64,000 bases of DNA, from NCBI GenBank assembly GCA_025526915.1, contig JAHLKH010000006.1, positions 62,001 to 126,000 of the forward strand, given 5' to 3'. The DNA comes from Entophlyctis helioformis (taxonomy: Eukaryota; Chytridiomycota; Chytridiomycetes; Chytridiales; Chytriomycetaceae). The notes below the pieces were generated by a model, which was given only the letters and a program-made list of their open reading frames with translations, made no database searches and was not told the origin of the DNA. The position numbers and the translations under genes were made by a program. Positions 17,885 to 62,901 of the stretch are shown here, piece by piece. Position 1 is the first letter of the stretch; the number at the start of each line of letters is the position of its first letter.

Positions 17885-20335
17885 ATGACGCAAAATGTTC
17901 AAGTGGGTGGCAGGCACGGTGGCGGTGTGCACCAGATGGCCGACCGCCCGTCCGTGCTGACCGCCCGCCTGCACGCACTGCCGCCAGGACAAGGCGACGG
18001 TCTACGACCTCAAACCCATGGATGCGCTCGTGATGGCCGGCCCGTCGCTGAGACTCGTCACGCGCTTCCTCGAAACTGCTGGCCGCCGCATGGGCCTCAT
18101 GAACAAGCTGGCGACTGACGCCGGCTTCCACAAGCTGCGTGGTATGCACTTGCCCGAGCCGCCGACCTTCCTTCCGACCGACACGCTCGCTTGCGAGGCC
18201 GCCGTGGCCGCTGCCGGTGTCGCTGCCCCGCCCTCGTCTGCTGCTGCTGCTGCGGCATCTGCCCAGGCAAGTGCTCAGCGGCCATTCCCCCTTTCCGTCG
18301 TCACTGCCGCTCATGAAAAATTGTGGCGTTTTTGCAGCTTGTTGCTTCGCTCGTGACTGCCAAGCGGCCCGCCTCGGCCTTTGTGTCGGCCATGGATCTG
18401 CACGAGGCCTACAAGGCACGCACGACCACGCCTGTGCAGGTCGCCGAGCACGTCGTGTCGGCCATCGAGTTTGACGCGGCGCAGGACAAGCCTGTCGGTG
18501 CCATGTACGTCTGGCTCAAGGACGAGATCATGGCCCAGGCGAGAGCCTCGACCGATCGTTACGCCCAGGGCAAGCAGCTCGGTCCTCTTGACGGCGTTCC
18601 TGTCGGCAAGTAGTGCACGCTCGTACACGCGCTGACTCTTGCAATCCTGGCGCATGCGGCTGACGCTTGTGTGTCTGTGCAACTGCAGCTGTCAAGGACG
18701 AGGCGGACGCTGTTCCCTACGCGACGGGTCCGTATCGCCATGCTTGCCACTGATCGCTTGCTCAGCCAGTCGAGAGAGGCTGCAAGACTGACCTGCACAC
18801 ATGCAGGTGGTGGCACGACGTTCCTAAAGACGCCTGCAACTGCCGATGCAGACTCGGTCGCGAGACTCCGCAGCGCAGGCGCCATCATCATTGGAAAGAC
18901 GCGCATGCACGAGCTCGGCGTTGATGTGACAAACTGCAACCCCGGCTGCGGCACGTCTCGCAACCCTTACAACGTCGACCACTTCACTGGCGGCTCGTCC
19001 GGCGGCTCGGCTGCTGCGGTCGCTGCCGGTCTCTGCCCGATCGCCATTGGTGCTGGTACGACGCGTCTCGGCGTCTGTTTCCAACCACTCTGCTCAGACT
19101 GACACCTGCTCATGCCATGGTGTGCAGACGGCGGTGGCAGCATCCGTATTCCTGCTGCTTACACCGGCGTGTTTGGCCTCAAGCCGACCGCCGGCCGTAT
19201 CTCTAGCAGAGGTTCGTTGCCTCTTGCTGTGTCTGTCGGCGTTGTTGGTCCCATTGGCGCCACTGCCCACGACCTGGCCTTGTCGGTAAGTTGGTCGTCA
19301 TAAGTGGCGTCGTGAGTGGTGTCATCCACACCTCACTGACAGAGTCGCCATTCACATGCCATGTACACGCCATGCAGTATGCTTTGATTGCCGGCCCCAA
19401 CCCCGACGATGTTACTGCCAAGAACAACCCCGCGACAGTCGTCAAGGACTTTGACAAGGCAAGCTGCACTTCCGACACCAACACACACTTGGCATGCACA
19501 TCTCTGACTGCTTGCATCCAACAGATCGAGTCGCTTGCTGGCATCCGCATTGGTGTCTACTGGCCGTACTTTGAAGACGCGGTATGCCTTCCCATTGGCA
19601 TGTGCACGGCCATCAGCCGGCATGACTCTAACTGACCGGCGGATGCGCTGCTGCATAACCACAGGACCCTGTGATTGTTGCTGCTTGCAAGGCTGCACTT
19701 GACAAGCTCGTGGAGCGCGGCGCTACTCTGGTCGAGATTGCCATCCCGGACCTGTCGCTCTATCGCATCTGCCACGTTTCGACCATTCTGTCCGAGGTGG
19801 ACGCGTACGCCTCGTCGCTGCCCAAGAGCTCCAAGCTGGGCGCTGGCACTCGCCTCATGCTCCTGACAGCCACGGCGCTGACGCCATCGGACTATATCAA
19901 AGCTCAGCAGATCCGCACGCGCGGCATGGACCTCATGCGCAGACTGTACAAGGACGTGGATGTCATTGTCACTCCCACAACGGCCATTCTGCCCCCAAAG
20001 ATCGTTGACGGTGCTCTGACCCACGGATACTCCAACTACAGCGAGGCCAGCAAAGCCATGCAGTACATCTGTAAGTTCTGCTCGGTTTCTGCCGTCCCAG
20101 ACCTGTCCATGGCTTTGATTCTGACGTTCGTTTCACGACAGTCTTTGGCAACTTCCTTGGCCTGCCTGCCGTGACTGTGCCTGTTGGATACGCAGAGCCC
20201 AGCAGCCTGCCCATTGGCATGCAGTTCATGGGCAAGTGGTGGGACGAGAACCTGCTTCTCCGTCTCGCCAATGCCACCGAGCACGTGCTGTCCAAGGAGC
20301 GCCGCCCTGCCAGCCTCTACTCGAAGCTGATCTGA
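17885..20335 (+). CDS. Amidase signature family hydrolase, copy B
   Basis: Tandem paralogue of the preceding amidase with the same ten-exon structure: 17885-17902, 17988-18266, 18338-18605, 18689-18727, 18807-19055, 19128-19285, 19378-19458, 19525-19581, 19665-20070, 20142-20335. The Lys (VPVAVKD), cis-Ser (GGSSGGS) and Ser (GGGSIRIPA) motifs are intact, and the same three GC-AG introns are kept. The first exon differs (MTQNVQ; donor GTGGGT). The sixth intron is 22 bp longer. Most sequence is almost identical to copy A, but residues after EIAIPD ([17 protein letters not shown]) and the N-terminal exon differ strongly. Both copies look functional. Confidence 0.88.
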
Positions 20336-21954: not shown

Positions 21955-21998
21955 GTGGATGGTCGTTGCAAGGGCAAATCCAAAATTTTCTTTTTTCT

Positions 21999-22021
21999 GG
22001 CCCGATATTCATACAATTACC
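21999..22021. repeat. Terminal inverted repeat, right (3') end of copy 1, with flanking 8-bp duplication
   Basis: Begins GGCCCGATATTCATAC on the plus strand; its complement is identical to the right end of copy 2 (37206-37228) and differs by one base from that of copy 3 (62879-62901). The adjoining TTTTTTCT (21991-21998) is repeated exactly beyond the other end. Confidence 0.9.
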
Positions 22022-22262
22022 AAGCGTTTTGGAATTAAATTCGACCCGAGAGGCGACGAATGCAAACCCACATATCACGTGATTCAAGGCTCGAGTCAGC
22101 AACGAGCATGCGACGACGAGCGGGCGAGGCACATCCAACAAGGGTCTCACCTTGCACCATTGTTTGAACAATGATGTGATAAGTGACCCGTTAGGTCGAT
22201 CGGGAGGTGCCCCGATTCAAAGTGTTGGTAGTGGTGGTGCAAGTCAGAGTGCCAAAGGCTTG
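22022..22262 (-). ncRNA. Candidate omega/fRNA scaffold region at the 3' end of copy 1
   Basis: Non-coding DNA between the stop codon of the nuclease gene and the terminal repeat. It holds a perfect 6-bp stem ATCGGG/CCCGAT (22199-22204 with 22211-22216, written on the plus strand) next to a second short stem (GACC/GGTC). Both are kept in copies 2 and 3. Fanzor/TnpB guide RNAs are known to derive from this position, overlapping the 3' end of the element. That this DNA makes such an RNA is inference. Confidence 0.45.
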
Positions 22263-25200
22263 TCATGCGAGACAACACATGGCTGGCAACCAGGCTTGGG
22301 CACGACTTGCACGCCGCTGGATGGCAGTATGCATTGCCTTGATGTCTGCAAGGTGCTCTGGCGTGGCTGGATCGTCACTGGCTGGCGTGTGCGTCAAATA
22401 GAGCGGCCGGTGTCCAAAGAGCAGATGCCACAGTGCGACCATCCCGATGTTGGTGGCTCCAAGCACATCGCGGTGGTAGACGGTCTTGCAGTCTGTGCAC
22501 TCGTAGCGTCGCAGGTTGGTGCGGTTATTGTCTGGGATCCGTTGCTTGCACTGCGGGCACATCTGGCTGGTCAGGTTCTCGTTGCAGCGGTAGATCTGTG
22601 TGTGTGTGTTCATGATCGTGTGGTCAGTTGGTGCACAGATGGATGGATGGCATATCCAGACGCACATAGGCATATCCAGACGACCGCAGATGCCTGATGA
22701 GAAACCTCTCAAACACAGCATGCCGGCCACCTTGGCCTGTAAAGTCGATGCCAAATGCCCAGACAACGGGAATGTTGTCCTTCTCAGGGTTGCTGACAGG
22801 GAGGCCTTGAGATGCAGCAGATGCGCGCTTGCCAGTGGTCGATCCTGCCAGCTTCATGATGCCCTCAAGAGCGTTTCCGCGAATTGACATGCTGTTGCTG
22901 CGCTTGGTGAACCGCTTGGCCTTGACCTTCTGTGGAATGCCATGCCATGCCAAGCCGTCCAGTGTGATCAGCATGGCGATCAAGCAGCATGGCGGTCATG
23001 TCAATGGGCATCCAGAACCAGAGAAAACGTACCCGTGCATTCAGGAATGGCGAGCAGTACGCACGGCAGCGCAGATCCCAAAAGGCTCTCTCGCCTGCTG
23101 AGACGGCTGGATCGGCATGTTTTGCTGTCTTGAATGCAATGGCCTCGTGGAGTCGGCTGCCTTGGCATATCGATCAGCAAACCTGACACAAGAGGCAGGC
23201 ACTGTGAGTTGATCTGGTCAAGCGTGCACGTGGCAGAGTCATTGCATGCATACCAGTCCTGAAAGATGCGCTCAGCATGTGCCATGCCAGAGGAGAGCAC
23301 GTACTTGGACTCGAGCTTATACGAAAAGTCTCTGAGATCAACCAAGATGCTGGACGCGCCATACAGGTACCGCTGGCCCCAATCAATGCCAACAATCCGC
23401 ACAAACCGGTAGCCCTTGTTGGTGAACAACTTGTTGGCTTTGATGATGTTGCGCAGTCGCTGCGAGGCATAAAAGTTGCGCTGGCCTGTCATGCCATGGC
23501 ATGAGTGAGGAATGTGCAATGCATGTGCACCAATACGCGAGTTTAGCATGCAAGTGGCTTACAGGATTGGGTGCTTTTGGCTTGGTGGCTGTGGATGGCA
23601 TGTCAGTTGCTGCTGGTGCCAAGTGTGCATCATAATGGCACAGCAACTCACATGTGCCATCCATGTGATCATGCCCATCATGCCCATCATCATCATCAAT
23701 CAGAATCATCATCATCATCAACCCACGGCTGCTGGCCTGAAGACACCAGATTGGAGCATGCAGATCAAGGCGGCAGTCAGAATCAATGTGTGCACCATCG
23801 CATTCAAGCACGCCACATACAGCAAGGTGACTCTGGACGGTCTGTTCGGCTATTGAGAGCCAGTTGAAAGATGCTGTATCCATCCGTCCTGACGCTGCCT
23901 GTCAGGATTGCCTTGGTCCGTTTTGCTGGACGCACAGCATCAATTGCAGCCTTGATATGCTTCTCACGCTCCTTGCCAACCAGACCCTGCTCATCAGCCT
24001 CTTGCGTCGCCTTGGCTGTGGCTGGCTGTGGCCTTGGCAACCGCGTCCATCTCCACAAGAGTACCAACTCTGACCTTGATATGCTCCTCGCGCTCCTTGC
24101 CAACCAGACCCTGCTCGTCAGCCTCTTGCGTCGCCTTGGCTGTGGCCTTGGCAACCGCGTCCATCTCATCTTTGGCTTGTGCAGGTGTCTGGAAGCGACC
24201 TTTCTCGGGGCGGAGGCCGGGAAGCAGGACGTCGAGAACACAGAGCTCTTGACTTGCGCTGAATGCGTCTTGGATCTTGCTATTGGGCGTCTCAAGCTCC
24301 AAGTCTTCATCTTTGTAGTCTTGGACAAAAGTGCAGTGTCAGCATCAAATCATGTAAACATGACATAAACAAGTGCGACCTACTGAGTGCATCCAGAAGC
24401 TCCAGTCTCAATGTCTGCAAAGCATCACTCTGCTTGCCATTCTTGCGCTCATCCGTGGTCCCCATTACCGCCCAAAAGAGGGTGGCCTCGGTAATGAGGA
24501 TGAACGGGTCGCGGCTTGCCGCCTCAGGGCACAACTTGATTGTTGTGCCAACAGCAAGCTTGCGCAGCTCGTAAAAGATCCTGATCTCTGAGAGTGACGC
24601 ATTGCTCAAGATCGGCACAAGCACATGCAATGCTTGCGGGATTGTATCAAGACCGCCGTTGTCTGTGGCTGGCAGCGTGCTGGGTGTCACGGCCGCGGTG
24701 GTGGCCTTGTCCTTCCTGTGCCGTTGCCTCTTGGGTTTGGCACTGTTGGTGGCCGATGAAGAGGTGGACCGGTTGTGCTTGAGACCCGAGGCAGGAGGGG
24801 CAGCGTCTTGAGCAGCGTCTAGTGAGGCGTCCTCAGTGGCCGGTGGTGTGGTTGATGCTGGCCCTTTGCGCCTTTGTTTCTTGCGTGTCGGTGGGCTTGG
24901 TGTGGCGACCTCGGCAGCAGTGCGTTTGGCATCCTCGGCGGCGGCATGCTTGGCATCCTCGGCGCTTCTTAATGATCCCGATCCACCTGTCAACATCCTT
25001 GGCAGACGCACCCTGCACCAGGCTGTGAGCTGCATCAACCAACAGCTTGGACTGGTTGGTCATAAAATGGGTGGCCAGCATGCGGCCGACATCGCGTGCA
25101 AGGTTGCTGTAGATGTTTTGCCTTGCTTTTGCACAAAGGCTGCTATCAAGCCTGTAGGGCAGGACAGCCTCCATAGTGTCCGTGTGCACAGCGTCTGCCG

Positions 25201-28200
25201 TCGGTGCACTCTTCTGCATCAAGGCAGACAGCTTTGCATTCGCCTGCTCCACAGTTGACTTGAACTCATTGGCCTTGGTTGTCGCTGTCTGCTGCACGCG
25301 TGCTGTCCGTGAGATTGACTTCCGTGTGCCTGCTTTCCATGTCGCTGCTTGCCGTGTGGTTTTCTGTGCTGCGGATGCCTGCTGTGTCGCGTCCACCTGC
25401 CCCTCCTTCCGTCTCCATGTCCGATGTATGATCAGCTGCATCACGGTGACGATCCAGCAGTGGACAGGGTACTTGATCGCATGCGGCTGGACCATCTTAT
25501 CATCCGCCATGATGTATCCAATGTGATATAGCAGCATGTCCAAAGCACCCTCGCCACCAGACGTGCTGCTGGTGAGCGCCGTGAGCAGCTCATTTGCAGT
25601 TGGGACTGCTGGCGGCTGGGCGGCTGGCAATGGTGCACCGGTGCTGCTGGCTGCTGTTGCTGCTGTTGCTGTCACAGTCTGCGATGCATTTGCAAAGGTG
25701 CAGATCTCAAGCACCGTGTCGCGCTCGAGAGGCACCAAACTGCCATAGCGAGGTATCTCTGTGTTGCTGCTATGTGGTCCTGTGCCATACATCAGCCATG
25801 CATTGATGCGCTTTTGGAGGATGCACCTGCCCGTTGTCTGCATTGTGCCCTTGCCCTCGCCGAGGTCGTCTGGGTTGATGTAGTAGTATGTTTTCACACT
25901 GCCACTGGTGACTTGCATCATGCAGTAGTCAAGTGGCAGTGGCGCGTCTGGGCTGAGCTTGACAAGAACCTCGACTATCGCGCCGATCAACGCAAGGACA
26001 GCACACAAGAGGCCGGCTGTGTAATTGTACACCGTCAGGAGGGCGTCCTTTCTGACCGAAATGGCCGTCTGCTTGGCCAGCGGTGTCTTGGTATGGGTCC
26101 CAAAATACTTTGTATACTCTGGCTTGTTTGACAGCATCTTCTGCTCATTTCACGAGTGCACCAGTCAGCCTCACAACACCAAGCATCCAGAGCAACATGG
26201 CAACCAAACCCCATACCGCCAGATCCACAATCATAACACGGCTGTTATGCTGTGCCTCATCCCCATCCTCATCCTCATCCTTGCCCTTGCCTTTGCCTTT
26301 GCCTTTGCCATTGCTCTTGCTCTTGCTCTTGCTCTTGTCCTCATCCTTGTACTTTGGTGCTTTGCGATGATGCTGCACGTTTTTCCGACTGTCTGGTGTT
26401 TTGACTTTGAGGACCCCATTGACTGTCTGGACTGGCCCTGATGTCACGCAGCAATTGCCCGCAACATCCAGATGTGTCGCCCATCTATCATGATATTCGT
26501 GTCTACCAGCAGAATCCATGTCAGCAAGCACAATCAGGGCTCGCAGCATGCCATCTGCCACTTACGTGCTTGTCGTTGTTGGAGATGGGGCCTTCCGGTG
26601 GCGTCGCCCTGACTTCTTCTTGTTTTTCTTGATGGTATTCTCGGTCGCAGCCTTCTCAGCTCGCTCGGCATTCTCCTTTGCATGTGCAGCCTCTGTCTCC
26701 TCAGAGAATTGGAATGGCGCCTGCCATGGTTGGATGCAGCATCAGGCATCCCTTCCTTGTGCACGCAACACAGTCACAATCACCAACGGTGCCCTGTAAC
26801 CTACCGTCGTATTAGTGTCATCAAGTACACCAATGAGAAGTTTCTTGCGGTGTGCTTGTTCAGGGCGATCGTTGTCAGATGACTTGGGCAGCGGTGGAGG
26901 AGGACCAGCCTGTGGAGTAGAATGATCAGCAATCGTGCCAAAACAGTACAGGCACACACTGTCAGTGGAAGATGAGACGCACGGCGGCTTGCTCAATGAC
27001 TTTCTGCAGCAGGGCAATAGCCGTTTGACGCTGATTGACGAGCGTGATTGAATTGCCCTTGCTGATATGTCGATTCTTGAGGCCATTCAAGTCATTCAGT
27101 AGGTTTGTGGCCTCATCATGGATAACTGCAAACGTGTCTGCCGGCGCCACTCTTGTGCTGATCCGTCCGCGGTACTCGGTCTTCTTCTTGCCTGTATCTG
27201 CAATAGCACATTCAACAAAAACGGCACTGTGAGTGGATTGCATCAACCATTTCAATGCAAGCAGAATATACTTGGAGTGGCTGTATGCCGGTGGGGGGCA
27301 TTTTGTGGATGCACGATCTCATCCAGCTGCGTCTTCATTCTTGGAGCAACAGTCTGTCCAGGAGCAATGGATCGAGTCAGTCACATTCAAGATCAACAAC
27401 CGTGTGTGGTGCAAGAGGAACGGCATGCATCCAAGCCGTGCAGCAACTTACAAAAGCATGCCAAATCATCTGATCCGCCTTACTGAGCACCATGTAATCA
27501 TCTGGCTCGATGGACTGCTCGCGCACAATCTGCAGCAGCTGTGCACTAGCCGCCCTGCAGATGGCTGCGAGGATGTCACGGCTAGTGACTCCATCATACT
27601 TGCTCGCAAGGAGATCAACTGTTTGCTCTATGATGGCGTCCAATGCCACGTGGCAGCCATTGACCTCCTTGAATGCCACATCCAGCCGCCTGCTGGCAAC
27701 AATGCCATTGGCAAGCTGTTTGACGCGATCGCTCGTCAAGTGGACAGGTGGGACACCAGTCTTGGCTTGCTGCTGCAGCTGCTGCGCAGTATGGATCAAA
27801 CAGCAACCAGGCGATGAGCACCTGCACAATAACAAGATCGCAGCATCAGAACCAGGAAAGCCATGTCAGTTTTCCAGAAACACCACAGATGGCATGCATG
27901 CATACTTGGCTCCAGCCGAGGCTGTCACGTTGACATACATGTGGTTGGCATTGCCTTGTTGAGGCCCAGATCTGTGCAAGGCATGCAATCGTGTCAATGC
28001 CAATATGTCCATAATATCCTTCAAGAATAGACTTGCCTCGCGACAATCGGGGCTGCAAACGTGCCAACTGGCGCTTTGGGCTCGATTCGGTCGACAAAGA
28101 CTGAGAATGCATTCTTGAACATTGGTATGAGGCTCTTGTCATGACTCTTGGCCAAGTCCTTGATGTACGCGTCCCTGAGGTCATACATGAACACCTTGGC

Positions 28201-29234
28201 CTCTTCAGGAGTCTCGAGTTTTCTATAGAGCTCGGCCTCCTTGCCATCCAACTTGGCTGCCTTGCGATCGAACCACGCGTTAATGAACTTGGCAGCGGCC
28301 GCGATCCCTGAAGGCAATACAAGCAGAATTGCGCATGAAGACAACAAATGGCATGTGAGTCATGACAGACAACAAAACAGGCGCGGCAACCCACCATGGC
28401 GATTGCGGCCAAAAAAGTCTGTATGAGAAAACGCTGCAACACCCTGACATGCACCGCGAAAATCCCGCACGCCCAATGCAGACGCGGTTGAGGCGATACC
28501 GCCATGGTTGTATGAGCGAGGCTGGTTAAACCGCCCATGCTGCAAGTGGGTCACAACGATACCACATTGACCAGCACAATGAGCAACCAGATCAGAGTCA
28601 TTGGAGACAACAACGATTGGCTTGTCACTGTCACAAAATGCAGACCATAAGCCATCAGTCACAGTAGAATGATCCAAGGCAATGTTACCTTGGCTCGTGA
28701 ACACGGCGGGCGATGCATACATCAGCCTCATAATCACACCAGCATACCGTGCATCCCTTCTTTTTGCCAACAAGCTCGTTGAGGGCCTCAACGATGTGCT
28801 GTTTGTCCGTCTGTGTCAATGTGAAAAATCGGCCAAGAGCATGGGTCTCCTTTCTGAGTGGCCAACAGCAGAAGATGGTTAGTAAGGCAGCCACACAGTA
28901 CAGAGTAGCAAACCTACTTGGTCATCAACCCAATCTGCTTGTATTCTTGACGGCGGAACGCATACCGCAGGACCTTGACCGCCGCATGCAGCATCTTGAG
29001 TGCGCGGTGTCGGTGCTCGATCTTGATTCCCGCGTCTCCGCGGCGACCGTCGACGTGGAATTTGATGGTGTGGCCGTCGCCGACCGACGCCATGAACAGC
29101 TTGATGGCCGGCTTGACGATGGCCTTCCAGGCATCCTTGGAGTCGGGCAAGCTGAACGATGCTGTGGCGATGAGCTGCGAGTAGAATACGCTTAGCACGT
29201 CAATGTGTAACATGCTGCTGACAAAGTCGTCTGT

Positions 29235-29287
<53 letters not shown>

Positions 29288-29417
29288 TTGCTGGTCGCTG
29301 TTGCTGCAGTGTGCTGTGGACCACGTGCTGCACGACCTGGCTGAGTGCTGTGCCAGCAAGGTAGAGCCAGACGGCACAGCCTAGCTTGAGCATTCTCAAG
29401 TAGCCGCGGACCGTCAT
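22263..29417 (-). CDS. FEN1/XPG-like nuclease fused to Fanzor (TnpB-like) RNA-guided nuclease, transposon copy 1
   Basis: Multi-exon gene. The 5' part starts MTVRGYLRML (compare MGxxGL... of FEN1) and carries HIDVLSVFY, FHVDGRRG, DYEADVCIAR, SNDSDLVAHC and SHTDFF, matching the metal-binding blocks of FEN1. The joins 29417..28917, then ..28695, ..28390 and ..28037 keep the frame with proper splice sites, the last through a GC donor. A long middle part of unknown fold follows, including a basic KPKRQRHRK segment (possible nuclear signal) near 24720. The 3' part has RTDGYSIFQLALN, VGIDWGQRYLYGAS (RuvC-I), VVWAFGIDFTGQGG (RuvC-II position without Glu), then NENLTSQMC, CPQC, CTDC and YHRDVLGATNI (zinc finger and RuvC-III). 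Stop at 22263-22265. Continuity from FEN to RuvC as one protein is inferred; one join near 27290 is unresolved. Confidence 0.82.
23946..24165. repeat. ~100-bp direct duplication inside the copy-1 Fanzor coding region
   Basis: The segment encoding MDAVAKATAKATQEADEQG plus LVGKEREEHIK appears twice (about 23946-24050 and 24071-24165). Copies 1 and 3 otherwise align here with a single occurrence in copy 3 (60690-60795). The linker reads VRVGTLVE. It is a recent tandem duplication in copy 1. Confidence 0.75.
28037..29417 (-). other. FEN1/XPG-type nuclease domain of the copy-1 gene (domain annotation)
   Basis: Four exons encode an N-terminal and an internal XPG block plus an H3TH-like stretch. 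Acidic residues at the FEN1 metal-ligand positions are visible: D in HIDV, D in HVDG, E and D in YEADV, two D in SNDSDL, D in HTDFF. After the last block, GIAAAAKFINAWFDRKAAK reads like the helix-two-turn-helix region. Known FEN1-family enzymes cut 5' flaps and related branched DNA. A TATATATA-type peptide from a GTTGCT hexanucleotide tract (29229-29290) is inserted between the N-terminal lead and the first Asp. Confidence 0.8.
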
Positions 29418-29445
29418 GTTGCGTGGTGCTGGTGCGTGTGATGGG

Positions 29446-29448
<3 letters not shown>

Positions 29449-29486
<38 letters not shown>
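29449..29486. repeat. GT/AC dinucleotide tract inside copy 1
   Basis: About 38 bp of alternating GT just upstream of the FEN-like start codon (29417). Similar tracts occur at 17302-17349, 20694-20737, 35539-35552 and 62157-62180, mostly inside introns or 5' leaders. Confidence 0.8.
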
Positions 29487-30648
29487 TGTGTTGGTGTGTG
29501 TATCTGTTTGTTTGCGGGCAAACACAGCGCGTTCCAAAGTGGCGCGCTTTGATCAGATCTGATGGGCGGAGTTGAACTTTTCATTGCATGAAAACAGAGA
29601 GTGAGTCGACAGAGAGCGAGCATCCAGGCACTCGCCGTCCCCTGCCCAACAGCCATCAAGGGAGCAGCGAGCACCAACAGCCAGGCGTTCAAGATGCGGT
29701 CGTATGTTGCTGGCACAGTCATTGATGAGATGCCACTCAGTGCGCAGCTTGACATGCACCGTGCAGCATCACTCTGCGTGTCATGAGCTGCATTGCAGCG
29801 AGCCTCTCTCCAAGTGTCGTCTTCTCAGTCAATGTCCCACTGCATCCAACAATCGTCCTGTGACCCAGTGCGATGCAGTTGGTGTTGCCTGACTGGCCAG
29901 CTGGTCCATGGACAGGTTGGCCGTTGGCGCACTGTCTGCATCGCCCCTCTGCTCTGGATTGTCCTTGTCAACAAACACAGTGCATGCAAGACTGGGATCG
30001 TCAGGATTGTCGCCATCATCGTCGTTGTTGTGGTTGTTGAATGAATGGAGAGTGCTTGGTCTGTCTGTCTGGCCACTCCAGTTGCTGCTCAGTGGATCGC
30101 ATCCAAGATGCCATCGCACCAAGTGCAATGTGGCCAGACACGCCTGCCAGCACTCGCGTCCTCCTCACCAATCTCGTCTGGATCAGTGTCGTCGAGTGTG
30201 CTGCTCGTCGAGTGTGCTGCCACTGCCGAGTTTGGCATCCAAGTCGGCATGCCAATCCAGCTGTCCAGCAAGCAGTTCCTGCAGCCAACTCCCAAGGATC
30301 GATCCATTGAGCACGTCTCAGTGGCTGCTCATCTGCTGTTGCTGCATTCCATGTCGCAGTCGGAAAGCACCAGGCAGCTCAGTCCTGCGATGCCAACACT
30401 CTCGCTGTCCTCTTGAACAACAGCCAGATCGCCCTGTTCACGGCCGTCTTGCCAACGTCTCTTGTTGCTGTTTGGAGCCATCAGACATGCACGCAGTCAG
30501 TGCCAAGACAACGCAGACACGGCCGTCAGACTGCTGTACCATCGTCGTCGATGGGCAATGGAGCATGACTGGACAGACAGCGAGTCAACGCACCCGCTTG
30601 CCTGTCTGCAGCCTGCCTTCTGTCCGCCCGCCTTGTTGGGCACGCCTC
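29487..30648. other. Element 5' region between leader ORF and FEN-like start
   Basis: No reading frame here is conserved in copy 3, whose equivalent interval (55330-55558) is only about 230 bp. Short minus-strand frames (e.g. 29829-30128, acidic NNHNNDDDGDNPDDP) could be exons of the leader ORF, but I cannot prove splicing. Treated as 5' UTR or intron. Confidence 0.4.
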
Positions 30649-30945
30649 TCAGACGGCCACGACCACGCTGCTCTGCTGCATGGCCTGCTGGACTGCCTGC
30701 TGCATGCCACTTTGAGCAGTGAGCCTCGTCGTCCCCCCGAAGGACTCGACCAAGGAGAGCTGGACCATATCCGTGCAGATGGGTGAAAGGGTGGCGCGCT
30801 GTCTGCTAGGCCGTGTTGAAGGTGTGGTGGAAGTGGTGGTGCTGTCGCCTGCGTCGTTGTCGTTGGGCTCGTTGTTGCTTGTGTGCAGTTGGGCGGCAAG
30901 TGCAGCAGCGTCTGGATCTGGCATGGCGCGTTGCTGTGCACGCAT
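30649..30945 (-). CDS. Small leader ORF of transposon copy 1 (MRAQQR...)
   Basis: Starts at an ATG 34 bp inside the CCAAT array and encodes 98 residues: MRAQQRAMPDPDAAALAAQL, then a Thr/Ser/Asn-rich stretch. The same start and flanking bases (TCTAGAGAGCC...ATGCGAGCACAGCAAC) are present in copy 2 (about 35939) and copy 3 (55307). Copy 2 keeps MPDPD.AALAAQLHT; copy 3 diverges after MRAQQR. It may be the first coding exon of the nuclease gene or a separate upstream ORF. Function unknown. Confidence 0.5.
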   Translation of the reverse strand: MRAQQRAMPDPDAAALAAQLHTSNNEPNDNDAGDSTTTSTTPSTRPSRQRATLSPICTDMVQLSLVESFGGTTRLTAQSGMQQAVQQAMQQSSVVVAV

Positions 30946-30978
30946 CGCGCAGTGTCAGCACCGCGCAAGGGCTCTCTA

Positions 30979-31120
30979 GATCGACCAATCACAGCGATTC
31001 CACCAAGATCGACCAATCACAGCGATTCCACCAAGATCGGCCAATCACAGCGATTCCACCAGGAGTTGACCAATCACAGCGATTCCACCAGGATTGACCA
31101 ATCAGGAATATTCCACCAGG
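30979..31120. promoter_or_regulatory. Tandem 28-bp CCAAT-box array at the left end of copy 1
   Basis: Five head-to-tail units starting near 30979, 31007, 31035, 31063 and 31091, each with ACCAATCACAGCGATTC (CCAAT on the plus strand, ATTGG toward the element gene). The array abuts the left terminal repeat and ends 34 bp before the leader ATG. Copies 2 and 3 keep two boxes each (about 35862-35905 and 55220-55275). CCAAT boxes are bound by the NF-Y/HAP complex, so this looks like the element's own promoter. Confidence 0.75.
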
Positions 31121-31143
31121 GGTAATGGTATGAGAACCGGGCC
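31121..31143. repeat. Terminal inverted repeat, left (5') end of copy 1
   Basis: Ends ...GAGAACCGGGCC on the plus strand and matches the complement of 21999-22021 at 19 of 23 positions. It is followed directly by TTTTTTCT (31144-31151), the second copy of the target-site repeat. Copies 2 and 3 have lost this terminal repeat. Confidence 0.88.
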
Positions 31144-35842: not shown

Positions 35843-36004
35843 TACGTCGTGTTGGAAAGATACTGATTGGCCAATCCTGGTGGACTCGCTGTGATTGGTC
35901 GATCTAGAGAGCCCTTGCACGGTGCAGACACTGCGCGATGCGAGCACAGCAACAACGCGCCATGCCAGATCCAGACGTGGCTGCACTTGCCGCCCAACTG
36001 CACA

Positions 36005-37069
36005 CAGGGATCTGCGCTGCCATGCGTACTGCACGCCATTCCTGAATGCACGGGTACGCTTTCTCTGTTTCTGGATGTCCATTGGCATGATCGCCATGCT
36101 GCTTGATTGCCTGCTGATTGCACTGGATGGCATGGCATGGCATGGCATTCCACAGAAAGTCAAGGACAAGCGGTTTGCCATGCGCTGCAAGCGCATGTCT
36201 GATCGCGGACAGGCTCTTGAGGGCATCATGAAGCTGGCAGGATCGACCACTGGCATGCGCGCATCTCATGCGTCTCAGGGCCTCCCTGTCGACCGATCAA
36301 AGTCGACAGAGGACAACATTCCTGTTGTGTGGGCATTTGGCATTGACTTTACAGGCCAAGGTGGCCGGCACGCTGTGTTTGAGAAGTTTCTCATCAGGCA
36401 TCTGCGGTCGTCTGGATATGCCTATGTGCGTCTGATGCCATGCCATCCATCCATCCATCCATCTGTGCACCAACTGACCACACGATCATGCACTCACACA
36501 CACAGATCTACCGCTGCAACGAGAACCTGACCAGCCAGATGTGCCCGCAGTGCAAGCAGCGGATCCCATACAAGAACCGCACCAACCTGCGACGCTACAA
36601 GTGCATACCATGCGAGACCGTCTACCACCGAGATGTGCTTGGAGCCACCAACATCGGGATGGTTGCACTGGAGCATCTGCTCTTTGGACACCGGCCGCTC
36701 TACTTGACACACACCAAAGCCGACAGCAATCCAGCCACGCCAGAGCACCTCAACAGTATCGCAAGAATGCATACTGCCATCCAGCTGCGTGCACGAGATG
36801 CTCCACCTGTTGTCCCACAGCCTCAAACGCGGAAACACTTCAAGTCGCATGTGGCCTCATGGGATCAGATCAGCCTGTCGACCAGCAGCGTTCAAGACGT
36901 GCTGTACAGCAGCGTTCAAGACATGGTCCATCTGTCGTCCAGCAGCGACCAGCACGCAGACAGCCTGCCCTCAAGTCACCTGTCACTCATCCCACACAGT
37001 GACTTGTTTGACTACCAACACTTTGAATCGGGGGACCTCCCGATCGACCTAACGGGTCACTTTTTCTAA
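36005..37069 (+). pseudogene. Fanzor C-terminal fragment in copy 2
   Basis: Encodes DLRCHAYCTPFLNAR, then after an intron KVKDKRFAMRCKRMSDRG, IPVVWAFGIDFTGQGG, FEKFLIRHLRSSGYAYV, NENLTSQMC, CPQC...CIPC and YHRDVLGATNIGMVAL, continuing to a stop at 37067-37069 (DLTGHFF). The zinc finger and RuvC-III are intact. RuvC-I (DWG...), the DNA-binding half and the FEN module are deleted, so no active nuclease can be made. The open frame is surprisingly well kept, and its 3' part overlaps the candidate guide-RNA region. Confidence 0.85.
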
Positions 37070-37205
37070 CGATAAAGGTAAGCCTCTGGCTGGTGTGCCT
37101 CGCCCACCTGTCGTCGCATGTTCTTTGCTGACTCGAACCTTCCATCGTGTGATACGCGGGCTTCTTTTCGACGCCTCTTGCGACGAATTTAACTCCAAAA
37201 CGCTT
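37020..37205 (+). ncRNA. Candidate omega/fRNA scaffold region, copy 2
   Basis: The hairpin ATCGGG(37027-37032)/CCCGAT(37039-37044) and the adjacent GACC/GGTC stem (37046-37058) are followed by about 150 bp of non-coding sequence strongly conserved with copies 1 and 3, up to the terminal repeat. Conservation beyond the stop codon and the position at the 3' end of the element suggest an RNA role. Inference only. Confidence 0.45.
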
Positions 37206-37409
37206 GGTAATTGTATGAATATCGGGCCACAAGATGGCGTCCGTGCACCAGCCGTAGACTGCACAGCAGCGATCGCCCGATAAAAGCTTATGGCATAGTA
37301 TAAAAGACGAGGCGGTTTATAGTCGATGAGGTGCTGGTAAACATGCTGGACGAGAAGGGACAGAATACAAAAATGGGATGGGGTTGTCACGGGCCGGGGG
37401 TGGTATGGT

Positions 37410-41467: not shown

Positions 41468-42005
41468 GGCGTGAGTGGAGATGGGCGGAAAGTGCGAGGC
41501 CGTCGATGTGCGCCTTATGAAGGAGTGAGCTCGCCGCGCCGCTGTCACAATGCGCTGCAAGTTCACCAACCGAATTCACCACCCGTTCTGCCACGTGCAG
41601 CCGCGAGCTGCACAATTTTGCATGATGAACGGGTCGTGTTGAATTGCAGATGTCTGATTGGGCAAGGAGCGGCAAGGCTGGCAAGGGCACGTCCAAATTT
41701 AGGAAAATTAGATTATTGCCACGCGCGGGCTGTTGAATGCGGCACAGTTGGTCTGTGTCCAAGAAGGAGCAAACCCACCTTGTGACACGATCATCGACTG
41801 ACTGGTGAAGGCCAAGCCTTGTCGGTGGAGTGTTGAAACAATATGAGATCGGTGCGGGAAAGCGGGCAGGAGAGCGTTCAGCGTCTGTCGATCTGTTGAG
41901 CAGGACAGCCAGCCAGCCACGGACGACAGCGCAGGAGAGAGGTGTAAAAGGAGACCAAGAGTGTCCCGAGGTGCAGCAAAATGGCAGGCAGGGCAAAAGG
42001 AAGTG

Positions 42006-42078
42006 TGCCTCCTAGGTGATTTGAACACCTGACCTCTTGCTTACTAGGCAAGCGCTACTACCACTGAGCTAAGGAGGC
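42006..42078 (-). tRNA. tRNA-Thr (anticodon AGT)
   Basis: The minus strand folds as a cloverleaf. Acceptor GCCTCCT pairs with AGGAGGC plus discriminator A; D-arm AGCTCAGTGGTAGTAGCGCT; anticodon stem CTTGC/GCAAG with loop CTAGTAA (anticodon AGT); T-arm AGGTGTTCAAATCACCT. No intron. The D-loop and T-arm contain the A and B box polymerase III promoter elements. Confidence 0.95.
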
Positions 42079-55217: not shown

Positions 55218-58200
55218 CTCTGGTGGAGTCGCTGTGATTGGTTGCTCTTGGTGGAATCGCTGTGATTGGTTGATCTAGAGAGCCGTTGTGCGTGCAGACA
55301 CTGCGGATGCGAGCACAGCAACGGCAGTGGTGCAGGCAGCAGCGCCTGCTGTCTCGCTGGGCGGTGCGTGTGTGTCCTCCATGAATAAAGAGGGACGAAT
55401 GCATAGTCATGTGCAACGCTCTCTCTCTCTCTGAGGAGCATGCCATTCCACACACACAGACCAGTGCTCCATGTGTTGCTGCCAACCATCAGTCTGATAT
55501 TACGAGAGCAGCTTGCCCATAAAACGACCGACACCACGCAACAACAAACCAACGAGCCATGGGAGTCGACGGCAGTCTCCCCACCATCGACAAGAGAGGT
55601 GGTGTCAAGACATACAAAGCAGACACCCTCTCTCGGGTGCAATTCAGGCCATTGCCAGCAGCAGCCAGATGCAGCAGCAAGCAGCAGCAGCAGCAGCAGC
55701 CGACTCCGAGCCCATCAGCTGCATCATCCATGTCGACATCGTTTGCCTGCTCTTCATTGACATTATGAGAGCAGCAGCCGCAAAGCCGCCCCAGTCTGAC
55801 AACGACTGGAGGCTGCTACTCGAGCCACTCATCAACAGCCTTGCCGCAGCCATTGGACAGCTGCACACGGTCCATCTGCACGTCGATGGCTCGCAGCTTG
55901 ACACTGCCACCAAGGCTGCTTATGCGGGCGGGCCTGGGCGGCATTGGAGGCGGCATCCTTTCTCATGGCCGAGGCAGCCAAGTGAAATGCCGGCCAGAAG
56001 AGCGGCAAGCTCTCAAGGTATGCTGTTGGCTGCTGTTGATCTGCATGCTGTACTGACTCAATGCCATTCCAGAAACGAGATGCAGCGCCTGCAGAAGGCA
56101 TACCCCCTGACGCGGCAACGCAAGGCAGCCATCTCGAAGGCCCTGGGCAGTCTTCTTGGATACTTCAAAGGCGGGTCGTCTGTGTGCCTTTGCGAGAACG
56201 AGGCGGATGTTTGCATTGCACGCCATTCCCGCAAAGCAAGGTTGGTGGTCTTCTGCATGCTTCTAGAATCCATGGCTCACGCGCCTTCTTGACAGCACGC
56301 GCCAGTCATTGTCATCAGTGGCGACTCCGATCTGGTGTTCCACTGTGCCGGCTATTGCCCTGTCCTGCTGCTGCAAATGCGCAGTGGGCAGATCAATAGA
56401 ATGCGATCCTACAATCACCATGGGATTGCCTCCATTGCAGCCGCCTTAGGCTTGCCAGACATTCCCTTTGTCTGCCAGTTGGTGGCCGCAATGGCGAGCA
56501 ACGACTATTTCCATTGTGTTGGGATTGGTAAGTTGGCTTGCCTGCTTTGCATTTTTGGATGTCATGCACTGCGACCTTGACTTACTCGTGATGCTGTGAT
56601 GTGGACTTGAAAGGAATCATCACGGCTGCAAAGTGCATCATGGCATGCATTCGTTTGGAGGCAGAGCAGCTGGGCATCTCTGTCGCGGATGTCTGTGAAT
56701 GCCTCCAAGACCCCGACATTGCCAGGATGTTTGTGCATGTCATCAAGATCGCGTTCATGTGGCAGATGCACCAGATCGGTGGCAAGCCTCTTGCTCAGTC
56801 ATTCAGCAATGCCTTTGCGGTGTTTCTCAACCGTGACGAGAGAGGAGCCGATATTGGAGAGATCACAGCCCCAGCATGTGGCCATTATGCCAGTGTGTTT
56901 GCAGGACAGATGCGGCAGTAAGTCTTGCTTTGGATGCACTTGGACAGCATGGCATTGACATGAATGCATGCACCATCCAATGGCAACAGCATCACTGCCA
57001 ACAGGACCATCTCGCCCCAAAACAGGTAGGCACGGCTGCGATCTCTGCAGGATTCTTGTGGCACTGACTCTGATGGATGCCACTGGCAGATCTGCCTCTG
57101 CATGCACAGCCTACAGCACTGCTGCTTGAGCCACACGGCACAGCAGCTGAAGGGAAATGCCAGTCGTGGAGTTTGGCACATCACACGGGACGCAGTCACA
57201 GAGCTCGCCAACCACACTGTCAGCACAAGGCGGATGGACGGCGTTTTTGGCGAATTCAATGGCTGCCGTGTCGTGCTTGGCTGCATCCTCCGGTGCACAG
57301 CAGATCAGCTTGCCAATGACAGCATCAACGGCCGCGACATTCTTGCTGATATCTGCGAGAATGCAAGCAAGCAGCTGCTCCAGGCTGTCCACGAGAAGGA
57401 TCTTGCTACAAAAGGATATGAGACACTCAGCCCAGCTGAGCAGAGCCTGTTACACGCCTTTGTGAGTTTTGGATGGCTTGGATGTGTGTCTTGACTGTCC
57501 ACTGCATGCTGTTGCTGATTTTGAGCATGGCTGACTTGATCCATCACTGGGCGAGCAGATGGTGATCCTGAGACTGCAGGAACGGCTCAAGAGGTATCCA
57601 GGCATCGCATGTGCACCATTCAGGCGTTCAAGGAAGCCAGGTTCGCTCTGCATTTGTTTGGCACAGTGCGACCTTGTGTATTCACAATCAATCACGGCAT
57701 TCTTCTGGCAGGCAACCGCAAGGCTAAACAGCACCGCAGAAAGAGCACACGGATCGCGACTCGAAAGGCTGTCGCTGCCATTCGCAAACAGGCCGTAGAT
57801 ACGCTGAATCTCTTGGAATGCCAAAAGAAACACAGCCCGGATGACTTCAAGCCACCGGCACTTTCTGAGCAGTATCAACAAGCCACAGACACGCTGAAAC
57901 TGATCATTGAGCGAGCTCCAGTGCGTCTTTGCATTTGCTGGCTCTGTTTGCATGTGGCGGCTTGATGCACCTGCTCATGCTTTGACTTGACAGGTCGGCA
58001 AGCCACCGAAAGCGCCAAAGATGCTGCTGCCATCTCAAGCCGCAGCTGATGGCACAGATCGCGACAAGATTCTCTACATTGATGTGCTTCAAGACACAAA
58101 GACAACCGTGAGTTGAACTGCAGGCTTGTGATCATGAGCATCTTGTGCACATTCAGAATGCACGCCTAAGATTGCATCCAAACATGGCAGGAGCCATACC

Positions 58201-61200
58201 TCGTCACACTGGCCAGACAGGCTGTATTCAAGAAGGAGCGAGAAGAGCGTGCAGAGAAGGCCGTGACGGACAAGACCATCCAGGAGCACAAGAAGGATGC
58301 GAGCAAGCAAGCCCGCCAGGCTCAATCTGAGGACGAGACACGGGCGTAAGTGGCATATGGCATGTCGCGTGCCTTGAATGTGCATGCTGACCAGCGCGTT
58401 CTTTGACAGATACGAGCGTGGTGAGAGATCAGCAATACGGCAGCTACTGGAAGCAATCTATCGCCTGATTGCATTGCCAGTCATGACGGGTGCCGCTGCC
58501 ATCCATGGCGATGAGCCAAGGCCGGTGGAGAGCACATATGATCGTCCTGAGCAGATTGTCAATCTCGCGGTATGGTTCTGGATTGGCACGTTGATCTGCG
58601 CTTCTGGTTTTGTGTGTGTTGACTTGTGCGATGTGCAGGAAATGCTCTCTGCCGACCCCATCTTTATGAAGGCGTTTGGATGCCAAGTCAAGATGCCGCC
58701 GGCGATGCAGACGCGCGGCACAGTCGTCGAGGACATCTTCAACGCCGTGTATCGTTTACGGCGACCACATGGCGCGCAGGTCTCATTCTGATCGCCGCGA
58801 TGATCGAGGAGTTGGTCATGCTCAAGCCAGACGCGCCGCTGCCACTTCGATACTGCGTCTTGGAAGCAACAAAGGACAACATTCTGTTTTGTCAATCCGG
58901 ACGACCTTGGCAAGAAGAGATCATGGACTCTATGCCAATGGGTGCATTCTGGACAGCAGCATCACCGCGTGGCAGATGTACGGCGATGGCCCACGCAGCA
59001 GCAACAGCAAGCTGCATCGGTATGGCGACTTGGTGACCCTCGAGAGCGGCGCGGTGCTCAAGATCTGCGAGTTCAAGGCAGCCAAGAAGGCCACACAGCC
59101 TGATGACCACGGCGATCATGGCCACACAACCACGACAACCACGGCGACCACGACGACCACGGCGAGCATGATGAGCAGGGCGTGTCACTCGAGATCTCCT
59201 TGCACAATGTGCCCGAGCTGCCTGTGCAGCCTGACGACTTGGACACCCATGACGAGCATGATGTGCACAATCCAGCAGCAGCATCCAGCGCACCAATGCT
59301 CCACCACAAGCTGTCCAGCGACCAGCCGTCCAACAGCAAATGATCTGCTCGCGGCGCTCACCAGCAGCGTCTCTGGCGGTGAGGGAGCCGTCACGATGCT
59401 TCTGCGATACCTCGCGTACATTCTGGCAGGTGGCCAGATGGTCAAGCCACGAGCGCACAAGCATGTTGTGCACTCATGGCTTGTTACGACCATGCAGATG
59501 ATCATTCATCGCACTTGGACAAAGGGGATGGTGCAGGACAGCATGGCGCAGATGCAGGAGGATGCAGCCAAGCTGCGCATGTTTGCAATGGATGCAGACA
59601 CGGCGGCCGCAACACAGCAGGCAGCCACAATCCAGGCGTCTGAGATGCAGGATGACGCGATGCAGATGGAGGCAGTGCAGATGGAGGCAGACGCCATGGA
59701 TGGCGTTTTGCCTGGCATTCTTGACAACAGCTTATGCGCAGATGCCATGACCAGTATCTTCAGCAATCTGGCCAGGGATATCTGCGGCACCCTCTCTACG
59801 CATTTTATCTCGAACCAGTCGATGCTGGTGGACGCGGCAATCCACCGCCTGGTTCCTGGCTCGTCTGCTGAGGATGTCAAGAAATGGCGCGAGATCATGT
59901 CCAAGGCCGCCGATGTTGCCAAGGCCGCAAAGGCTGCAAAAGACGCCAAGGACGCCAAGGCTGCCAAGGCCGCCAAGGCTGCTGCTGCCAAGGACGCCAA
60001 GGCCGCCAAGCTTGCTGCCACCAAGGACGCCACACCACAAGCCACTCTGGATGCCGCCCCTCCCACAGCAGGCTGCAAGCGGCCCGCGTCAAGCTCTTCA
60101 TCGGCCACCAACAGCGCCAAACCCAAGAGGCAACGGCGCAGGAAGGCAAGGCTCCACCAAGGACGGTACGCCTGGCACAACGCAGGCCACAGAGGGCCAA
60201 GACGACGTTGAGCTACCGCAAGCATTGCACAAGCTCATGGCGGTCGAGTGCAACGCGTCATTGTCGCCGGCAGGCAAGTTCAAGCAACTGCGAGATCTCG
60301 CAGGCTCATCCCTCAAGCTGTGCCCGCAGCCGGCGAGCCGCGATCCCTTTGTCCTCATCACAGAAACCACCCTCTTTTGGGCTGTGATGGGGGCAAAGAA
60401 GGATCGCGTACCCACCAAGGACAATGCTGTCTTGCAAGCATTGAGAGAGCAGCTCCTTGCTGCACTCAGTAGGTCGCACTGCCTGTAAATGCCATGTCTG
60501 CATGATATGATGCTGACACTGCACTTTTATTGTAGACTACAAAGATGAAGACTTGACACTCGAGTCACCAAATGACACGATCGAGAAGGCGTTTAGTGCA
60601 AGCCGTGAGGTTTGTGTTCTCGACATCCTCCTTCCTGGACTCTGTTTGAGCGAGCGACGCTTCCAGACTCCTGCGGAGGCCAAAGCGCGAATGGACGCGG
60701 TTGCCAAGGCCACAGCCGATGCCACAGCCAAGGCGACGCGAGAGGCCGACAAGCGGGGTCTGGATGGCAAGGAGCGCGAGGAGCATATCAAGGCTGTGAT
60801 TGATGCCGCGTGTCCAGCGAGGCCAATCAAGACAATCAGACTCGGCAGCATCATGACGGATGGATACAGCATCTACCAGCTGGCTCTCAATGGCCGCACA
60901 AACCGTCCAGAGTCGCCTCGCAGTATGTGGCATGCTTGGATGCTTTGGTGCACACATTGATTCTGACTGCCGCCTTGATCTACAGATCCCAATGCGGTGT
61001 CGTCAGGCGAGCAGCCCAGTATTTTTGATGATGGAGGTCTTGGTGGCCTTGGTGGCGTGAATAATTGCTTGGATGATGCCTTGGATGGCGAATGTGAGTT
61101 GCTGTGCCAATCCAGACGCACACTTGTTGTCCACACCGACTGACATGCCATCCACAGCCGCCGATCCAGCCGACCCATCAGCCACCAAGCCAAAAGCGAC

Positions 61201-62901
61201 CAATCCTGTAAGCCACTTGCATGCCAACCTCGCGCATTGGTGCACATGCATTGCACATTCCTCACTCATGCCATGGCATGACAGGGCAAGCGCAACTTTT
61301 ACGCTTCTCAGCGACTGCCCAACATCATCAACGCCAACAATCTGTTCACTGACCAAGGCTACCAGACTGTTCGCGTTGTCAGCTTTGATTGGGGCAAGCG
61401 GTACCTGTATGGCGCGTCCAGCATGTTGGTTGATCTCAGAGACTTTTCGTATAAGCTCGAGCCAACTACGTGCTCTCCTCTGGCATGGCACATGCCGAGG
61501 GCATCTTTCAGCGGTGGTATGCATGCAATGACTCTGTGCACTCTTGACCAGATCAACTCACAGTGCCTGCCTCTTGTGCCAGGTTGCTGACCGACTTGCC
61601 AAGGCAGCGGACATCCAGGCGGCCATCGCATTCAAGACAGCAAAGCATGCTGATCCAAACGTCAAGCCTGGCGAGAGAGCCTTTTGGGATCTGCGCTGTC
61701 ATGCGTACTGCACGCCATTTCTGAATGCACGGGTACGTTTTCTCTGTTTCTGGATGCACATTGCCATGACCGCCAAGCTGCTTGATCGCCTGCTGATCAC
61801 ACTGGATGACATGGCATGGCATGGCATTCCACAGAAGGTCAAGGCCAAGCGGTTCACCATGCGCAGCAACAGCATGTCTATTCGCGGAAACGCTCTTGAG
61901 GGCATCATGAAGCTGGCAGGATCGACCACTGGCAAGCGCGCATCTCATGCGTCTCAAGGCCTCCCTGTCGACCGAACAAAGTGACAGAGGACAACATTCC
62001 TGTTGTCTGGGCATTTGGCATCGACTTTACTGGCGAGGTGGCCGGCATGCAGTGTTTGAGAGGTTTCTCATCAGGCATCTGCGGTCGTCTGGATATGCCT
62101 ATGTGCGTCTGATGCCATGCTGTCCATCCCATCCATCTGTGCACCAACTGACCACACACACACACACACACACACACAGATCTACCGCTGCAATGAGAAC
62201 CTGACCAGCCAGATGTGCCCGCAGTGCAAGCAGCGGATCCCATACGAGAACCGCACCAACCTGCGACGCTACGAGTGCATACCATGCAAGACTGTCTACC
62301 ACCGCGATGTGCTTGGAGCCACCAACATTGGAATGGTCGCCCTGTGGCATCTGCTCTTTGGACACCGGCCGCTCTACTTGACGCACACCAAAGCCGACAG
62401 CAATCCAGCCACGCCAGAGCACCTCAAACGCATCGCAAGAATGCATACTGCCATCAAGCTGCGTGCACGAAATGCTCCGTCTGTTGTCCCACAGCCTCAA
62501 ACGCGGAAACACTTCAAGTCGCATGTGGCCTCATGGGACCAGATCAGCCTGCCGTCCTGTGGTATTCAAGACGTGCTGTACAGCAGCGTTCAAGACACGG
62601 ACCATCCGTCGTCCAGCAGCGACCAGCACGCAGACAGCCTGCCCTCAAGCCACTTGACCTGCATCCCACACAGTGACTTGTTTGACCACCAACACTTTGA
62701 ATCGGGGCACCTCCCGATCGACCTAACGGGTCACTTTTCTAACGATAAAGGTGAGCACCTTGTGGATGTGCCTCGCCTGTCTGTCGTCGCATGCTCGTTG
62801 CTGACTCGAACCTGCCATCGTGTGATGTGCGGGCTTGCATTCGACGCCTCTTGCGACGAATTGTATTCCAAAACGCTTGGTAATGGTATGAATATCGGGC
62901 C
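55218..62901 (+). mobile_element. Transposon copy 3 with FEN1-like + Fanzor gene (~7.7 kb)
   Basis: Left side: two ATTGG boxes of the 28-bp array and TCTAGAGAGCC, then the MRAQQR leader start (55307); the outer left terminal repeat is missing. Right side: 62879-62901 matches the copy-1 terminal repeat at 22 of 23 positions. The gene order and exon pattern match copy 1 throughout. No matching target-site repeat can be defined because the left end is lost. The right end lies about 115 bp from the stop codon of the next (minus-strand) gene. Confidence 0.88.

Follow-up and report, generated by a model that had tools for sequence, protein, structure and literature searches.

Fanzors are described as RNA-guided DNA nucleases (PMC10432273), and most Fz1 proteins are given as 600-700 residues long (PMC11423790). 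Their motif is defined as D-X(125,275)-[TS]-[TS]-X-X-C4 zinc finger-X(5,50)-RD (PMC3627910), and their catalytic residues follow the order D, then E in a loop before the TNB, then D (PMC11423790). The element SPu-1 measures ~2.1 kb and carries one open reading frame (ORF) of 633 residues, 33-bp terminal inverted repeats (TIRs) and putative TA duplications (PMC3627910). We analyzed a stretch of 64,000 nucleotides from the chytrid Entophlyctis helioformis (positions 62001-126000 of contig C6, GenBank JAHLKH010000006.1), referred to as the window; all genome searches cover the 29.57-Mb assembly of this organism (482 contigs). By their sequence, copies 1, 2 and 3 in the window belong to a family of ~7-9-kb transposons, whose recognized gene is a single 18-exon gene predicted to encode a protein of ~1900 residues. 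In this protein a FEN/XPG-superfamily-like 5′-nuclease domain is followed by a middle region of ~1200 residues and by a Fanzor RuvC/zinc-finger nuclease.

The exon series is readable as a single frame in L039, a sister copy of copy 1 located on contig C138. L039 contains 1898 codons in 18 exons with all phases in agreement, and its introns are 61-102 bases long, 16 of them GT-AG and one GC-AG. We assigned the splice sites manually, using copies 1 and 3, and adjusted them at two places in L039. The predicted product starts with the N-terminal nuclease-like domain, continues with a middle of 1193 residues and ends with the Fanzor RuvC and zinc-finger exons. Other subfamilies contain the L039 exons in the same order, with 17 of 18 recovered in L041, 15 in L042, 16 in L043 and 14 in copy 3. 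None of these four copies gave a match to exon 11 and L041 alone gave one to exon 5; a 13-residue match to exon 9 sits out of order in copy 3. The exons linking the FEN part to the middle keep their frame in copy 1, and copy 3 can be read through at the same junctions. An NCBI gene model for another copy, P0121, has its first five joins identical to those of the L039 exon model. In copy 1, the gene lies on the minus strand, with its ATG at 29417, the last open frame ending at 22266 and a stop at 22263-22265. The features of the three copies are as follows (window coordinates).

21999..31143, minus (coding) strand: copy 1 element, 9145 bp, with imperfect TIRs; its ends (31143 and 21999) are where matching to other copies stops, as set by comparison with L039, L040 and L041
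31144..31151: target-site duplication (TSD), 5′ side, AGAAAAAA, from the flanks as read
21991..21998: TSD, 3′ side, AGAAAAAA, from the flanks as read
31121..31143, minus strand: 5′ TIR, GGCCCGGTTCTCATACCATTACC, from the genomic pattern search
21999..22021, minus strand: 3′ TIR, GGTAATTGTATGAATATCGGGCC, from the genomic pattern search
29418..31143, minus strand: long 5′ leader with tandem CCTGGTGGAATCGCTGTGATTGG units and no conserved reading frame in four aligned copies
28037..29417, minus strand: exons 1-4 (28918-29417, 28689-28853, 28395-28627 and 28037-28307), FEN/XPG-superfamily-like nuclease domain, from the exon model, the motif and weak family and fold matches
24384..27971, minus strand: exons 5-12, middle region without a family match, probably including the Fanzor REC; relative to L039, copy 1 has a frame break near 24.96 kb
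23563..24319, minus strand: exons 13-14, probable WED part of the Fanzor; relative to L039, copy 1 has 124 bp duplicated in tandem (about 23.95-24.20 kb)
22266..23485, minus strand: exons 15-18, Fanzor RuvC and TNB zinc finger with the putative catalytic D, E, D, from PF07282 and TnpB models; relative to L039, copy 1 has a frame break near 23.49 kb
21999..22262, minus strand: conserved 3′ non-coding end, candidate guide-RNA scaffold, from conservation across 27 copies
35847..37228 (start approximate), plus strand: copy 2, an internally deleted element with 5′ fragments and the last 1.2 kb, including the TNB exon and the 3′ end
55221..62901 (start approximate), plus strand: copy 3, of a divergent subfamily, interrupted by several frame breaks, with an intact 3′ end and matching exons at about 55.7-62.5 kb

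We determined how often the two nuclease parts occur together in the genome. Using a 73-residue FEN exon as query, 150 of 155 candidates were scored, giving 150 matches at 147 distinct loci, and RuvC and TNB matches defined at least 199 distinct Fanzor loci; these and all following linkage counts are among the matches listed. A Fanzor exon is found 3-9 kb downstream on the same strand at 94 of the 147 FEN loci, at a median distance of 5.1 kb and within 4.4-6.2 kb in 86 of the 94. Widening the range to 3-15 kb raises the number to 108, with 39 FEN loci having no Fanzor exon within 15 kb. The controls at 3-9 kb gave no locus downstream on the opposite strand, none upstream on the same strand and one upstream on the opposite strand. 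Seen from the other side, 93 of the 199 Fanzor loci have a FEN exon upstream. A tally based on a smaller number of rows had 43 of 69 linked and none reversed. The linkage of FEN and Fanzor exons is far above chance. An earlier note on this DNA had read copy 1 as one gene with an N-terminal FEN1-like and a C-terminal Fanzor domain. The same-strand exon series and the open frame in L039 bear this out, although the frame is interrupted in copy 1 itself. The note's further claims, that copy 3 keeps the domain order despite strong divergence and that the pairing is not chance adjacency, agree with the ordered exons of copy 3 (28-53% amino-acid identity to copy 1 in the FEN part) and with the linkage counts.

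The C-terminal part is, by its conserved motifs, a Fanzor of the Fanzor1-like type. The last exon of copy 1 matches Pfam PF07282 (Cas12f1-like_TNB) with E=2.1e-10, and the same family scores 40.4 bits in the 1898-residue L039 product, against a cut-off of 26.3. In an alignment of five copies (A8) the Fanzor motif is complete and invariant (D35, T226 S227, C230 C233 C250 C253, R259 D260), and so are D35, E223 and D260, the putative catalytic residues. At the zinc-finger end, all five copies match NCBIfam TnpB models (best 1.8e-7), with scores far below the curated full-length cut-offs of these models; a SprT-family model likewise matches all five (best 0.0034), and a PDB profile search returned weak rows, one of them a TnpB-like protein. 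As in a eukaryotic transposon, the gene is flanked by TIRs and TSDs, and its host is a chytrid, with a FEN1 gene whose hand-spliced product is 100% identical to an Entophlyctis helioformis protein.

The N-terminal domain contains seven acidic positions that are kept in every covered copy (24/24 to 25/25). They are spaced 50/86/2/21/2/58, compared with 53/72/2/19/2/52 in the FEN1 of the host at what we take to be its metal-binding carboxylates, and none of 100000 random placements fits. Seven carboxylates in FEN1 order and spacing point to the FEN/XPG/XRN 5′-nuclease superfamily. Genome searches with Pfam XPG_I (PF00867) and XPG_N (PF00752) returned four and five matches, respectively, on contigs C1, C2 and C43, none of them a transposable-element locus, and the domain yields neither the XPG_N/XPG_I nor the FEN1 profile match that would place it in the FEN1/XPG family proper. 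XPG_I_2 matches six of eight copies (E up to 1), with a best value of 4e-4 that lies below the 24.2-bit cut-off; in the genome it matches C1, in an ORF also matched by XPG_I, and C38, again at no transposable-element locus. The PIN-like YacP NYN family gives a weak Pfam match in one of eight copies. A low-confidence model of the predicted FEN core resembles EXO1, T5 FEN and T4 RNase H, with XRN1 and XRN2 also among the best matches, and 16 of the first 20 rows of a VIA-align comparison are FEN/EXO1/T4-T5/XRN-type nucleases. The FEN assignment rests on the seven acidic positions, the below-cut-off XPG_I_2 matches and the low-confidence structure matches. Since the XPG_N and XPG_I families and the FEN1 profile fail to detect the domain, we refer to it as FEN/XPG-superfamily-like rather than as FEN1.

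We compared the FEN-domain profile with 5.77 billion proteins, scoring the best 7992 candidates by common words. There were five matches with E up to 1, all of them hypothetical proteins of Entophlyctis helioformis, and so in this protein search the domain is found in Entophlyctis helioformis alone; none of the viral contigs searched with it matched. A literature search combining Fanzor or TnpB with flap nucleases, exonucleases, PIN, XPG and chytrids covered titles and abstract openings, with subscription papers and supplements outside its scope, and returned no FEN/XPG-Fanzor fusion. Such a fusion is likewise unmentioned in the accessible portions of PMC3627910, PMC10711439, PMC10432273 and PMC11423790. 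The statement in the earlier note that no Fanzor with a FEN-family domain is known to have been described therefore stands within the literature covered, and its recognition of a Fanzor/TnpB-like RuvC plus zinc finger at the C terminus is supported by PF07282, the invariant motif and the TnpB models. Its FEN1-like label holds insofar as the acidic spacing is that of the FEN/XPG superfamily, but not for FEN1 itself, and of the families it had named, PF07282 was matched whereas PF00752 and PF00867 matched no locus of the element.

The element has the termini of a mobile DNA. GGCCCGGTTCTCATACCATTACC and GGTAATTGTATGAATATCGGGCC form imperfect inverted repeats of ~23 bp. Allowing up to three mismatches, a 24-base version of the 5′ end pattern occurs at 84 genomic sites and the 3′ end pattern at 170, and the reversed-pattern controls occur at none. 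Both ends of 20 further elements were compared together with those of four elements already analyzed; of these 24 pairs, two with a repeated 5′ flank were dropped. A shared stretch of 7-11 bases lies across the element in 14 of the remaining 22 end pairs, compared with 7 or more bases in 9 of 462 crossed pairs, some of which match because the flanks resemble each other. Clean-ended elements show an 8-bp duplication, which in copy 1 is AGAAAAAA on both sides, and the range is 8-11 bp. The element L070/L071 (C18) shares its 30-base 5′ flank with the element L100/L101 (C272), and their 3′ flanks are nearly identical, so both lie in target sequence that is duplicated or repeated. L091 (C141) and L093 (C176) have nearly the same 3′ flank and different 5′ flanks, a pattern suggestive of a repeated sequence into which the elements inserted or at which they recombined.

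No transposase or second gene was recognized in the 9.1-kb element, with the middle and the leader examined and a MuDR-like enzyme considered. Pfam matches to the 1193-residue middle do not rise above noise, no DDE-like triad was seen among the conserved residues of the middle, and in the 5′ leader indels disrupt all frames among four aligned copies. Internally deleted copies with both ends are present (C35s and C436s, which have flanks in common, and C199s); the movement machinery can therefore act in trans.

The segments of the gene differ in their divergence. The ratio of non-synonymous to synonymous change (dN/dS), over pairs with a finite value, is 0.20-0.56 in the FEN exons, 0.36-0.70 in the middle and 0.27-0.65 in RuvC/TNB. 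In the four comparisons made across subfamilies (L039 against each of L041, L042 and copy 3, and L042 against L043), dS ranges from 1.08 to saturation in the FEN exons, from 0.87 to 1.58 in the middle and from 0.57 to 1.19 in exon 13, but is 0.18-0.20 in RuvC/TNB (exons 15-18). The 3′ nuclease module thus seems to have been exchanged or homogenized among copies. Between L039 and L041 the 1.7-kb 5′ leader is 91% identical, and the FEN exons including introns are 68% identical. Both element ends appear to have been homogenized by recombination while the interior diverged, and the low 3′ dS between subfamilies would fit frequent copying repair, without proving it. Across 27 copies representing several subfamilies, the last ~180 bases show strong conservation, as expected of a guide-RNA scaffold, for which this segment is a candidate; two of its 48 predicted base pairs covary.

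We propose that the protein combines an RNA-guided cut by the Fanzor part with end processing by the FEN-like part, followed by homing-like copying repair, with a transposase acting in trans; we put the probability of this proposal as a whole at about 0.5. The earlier note had suggested a two-step cut-and-process system, which likewise stands as a proposal. RNA from the conserved 3′ end would load the Fanzor part and direct it to cut the sequence adjoining the right end of the element. Because such a guide would match the sequence beside the right end, the cut would fall on sites without the element, either an empty donor or an allelic site. The FEN-like part may then resect or trim the 5′ ends of the break, which could be repaired by copying the element from the sister or homologous chromosome, so that the element would be maintained or spread by homing-like repair. 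Movement itself would use a transposase supplied elsewhere, as none is recognized in the element. It is conceivable, though we would not bet on it, that the protein is a natural single-protein RNA-guided homing machine, in which the Fanzor half cuts, the FEN/EXO1-like half resects and repair is steered to copying the element. If this is true, eukaryotic transposons have produced a programmable nuclease with an end-processing nuclease already attached. The retention of a Fanzor with a 5′-nuclease-like domain across many divergent copies in one genome suggests that break processing belongs to its job, which is directly testable. The fusion could also provide a natural template for RNA-guided cutters that favor repair by copying.

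Several observations weigh against the proposed mechanism and the gene structure on which it builds. Homogenization of the 3′ module could be ordinary ectopic gene conversion, and the conserved 3′ end has no folding advantage over shuffled sequences (z -1.07). On the N-terminal domain, the FEN1 profile performs no better than on shuffled sequence, with no significant FEN1 match, and both AlphaFold models are of low confidence (pLDDT 41 and 43). Among the seven fully examined copies (1, 3 and L039-L043), one is known to be open; in the window itself, copy 1 is broken in frame, copy 3 has frame shifts inside several exons and copy 2 is internally deleted. P0121 (520 residues) begins upstream of the assigned ATG, omits a piece of exon 1 and ends in exon 6, and the NCBI models P0122-P0124 end near exon 3. 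The public annotation lacks the FEN-Fanzor join because the NCBI models of the family all end in or before exon 6. Finally, among the 199 Fanzor loci, 106 lack a FEN match at 3-9 kb upstream; 23 of these are plus-strand loci no more than 7 kb from the start of a contig, and in the others the FEN exon may be deleted, divergent or missed.

The FEN-like domain might instead act on RNA and trim the guide RNA or the element transcript at its 5′ end, as XRN- and PIN-type relatives of FEN do. We consider this rather unlikely. It would account for the presence of XRN1 and XRN2 beside EXO1 and T5 FEN among the best structure matches, and for the weak Pfam matches to YacP NYN and XPG_I_2, yet DNA 5′-nucleases (EXO1, T5 FEN, FEN1) occupy several of the best structure rows and the acidic positions are spaced as in FEN1. 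Similarly doubtful is a function of the domain, perhaps together with the middle, as transposition machinery that processes flaps or branched intermediates at the element ends and so serves mobility, not homing. TIRs with 8-11-bp target duplications are typical of cut-and-paste movement, and no other gene is recognized in the element. TIRs and TSDs are, however, normally products of a DDE transposase, whose invariant triad was not seen in the middle, and the internally deleted copies imply that the machinery can act in trans. There is little reason to regard the domain as a structural or DNA-binding remnant without catalysis: it is distant in sequence from known FEN families, but none of its seven putative metal-binding acids has been lost in the covered copies, which include subfamilies with FEN dS above 1, and its dN/dS is well below one at 0.20-0.56. 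That two adjacent genes or an assembly coincidence mimic one gene, as the frame breaks in copy 1 and the short NCBI models P0121-P0124 might suggest, is scarcely credible given the 18-exon open frame in L039, the FEN-middle joining exons in copies 1 and 3 and the fixed order at 94 loci.

Elsewhere in the window, a segment is duplicated in tandem (14602-16287 and 17960-19667, 3.36-3.38 kb apart, matched blocks 88-99% identical). Two related stretches at 51203-51292 and 52750-52839 are 74% identical, the second of them inside an open frame with a Pfam match to class-3 lipase (Lipase_3). A tRNA-Thr (AGT) on the minus strand at 42005-42078, on which ARAGORN and Rfam agree, is an ordinary host gene. 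An ARAGORN call of a tRNA-Asp on the plus strand at 22309-22392, opposite the 3′ coding exon of the Fanzor, had no Rfam support.

We compared the element with known systems. XPG_I_2, presumably of the Asteroid/Mkt1 type, is the sole Pfam family to match several copies, at scores below its cut-off. With FEN1, EXO1, T5 FEN and T4 RNase H the N-terminal domain shares the near-equal spacing of seven acidic positions and the best structure matches of the core model; unlike them, it is undetected by XPG_N, XPG_I or the FEN1 profile, lies inside a transposon protein and has EAD in place of EAE. The zinc-finger end matches NCBIfam models of TnpB (IS200/IS605, IS607), whereas the Entophlyctis gene is eukaryotic and spliced and has no TnpA beside it. 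A further likeness is to Fanzor1 (SpuFz1 of Spizellomyces punctatus and relatives), which shares the RuvC and C4 zinc finger, the arrangement D-X(125-275)-[TS][TS]XX-C4-RD with a catalytic E just before the zinc finger, a eukaryotic transposon with inverted repeats, and loci that keep the ends without the gene (PMC3627910, PMC10432273, PMC11423790). The Entophlyctis element differs from SPu-1 in its 9 kb, 18 exons, ~1900 residues and 8-11-bp duplications, and its protein carries an extra nuclease domain and a large middle.

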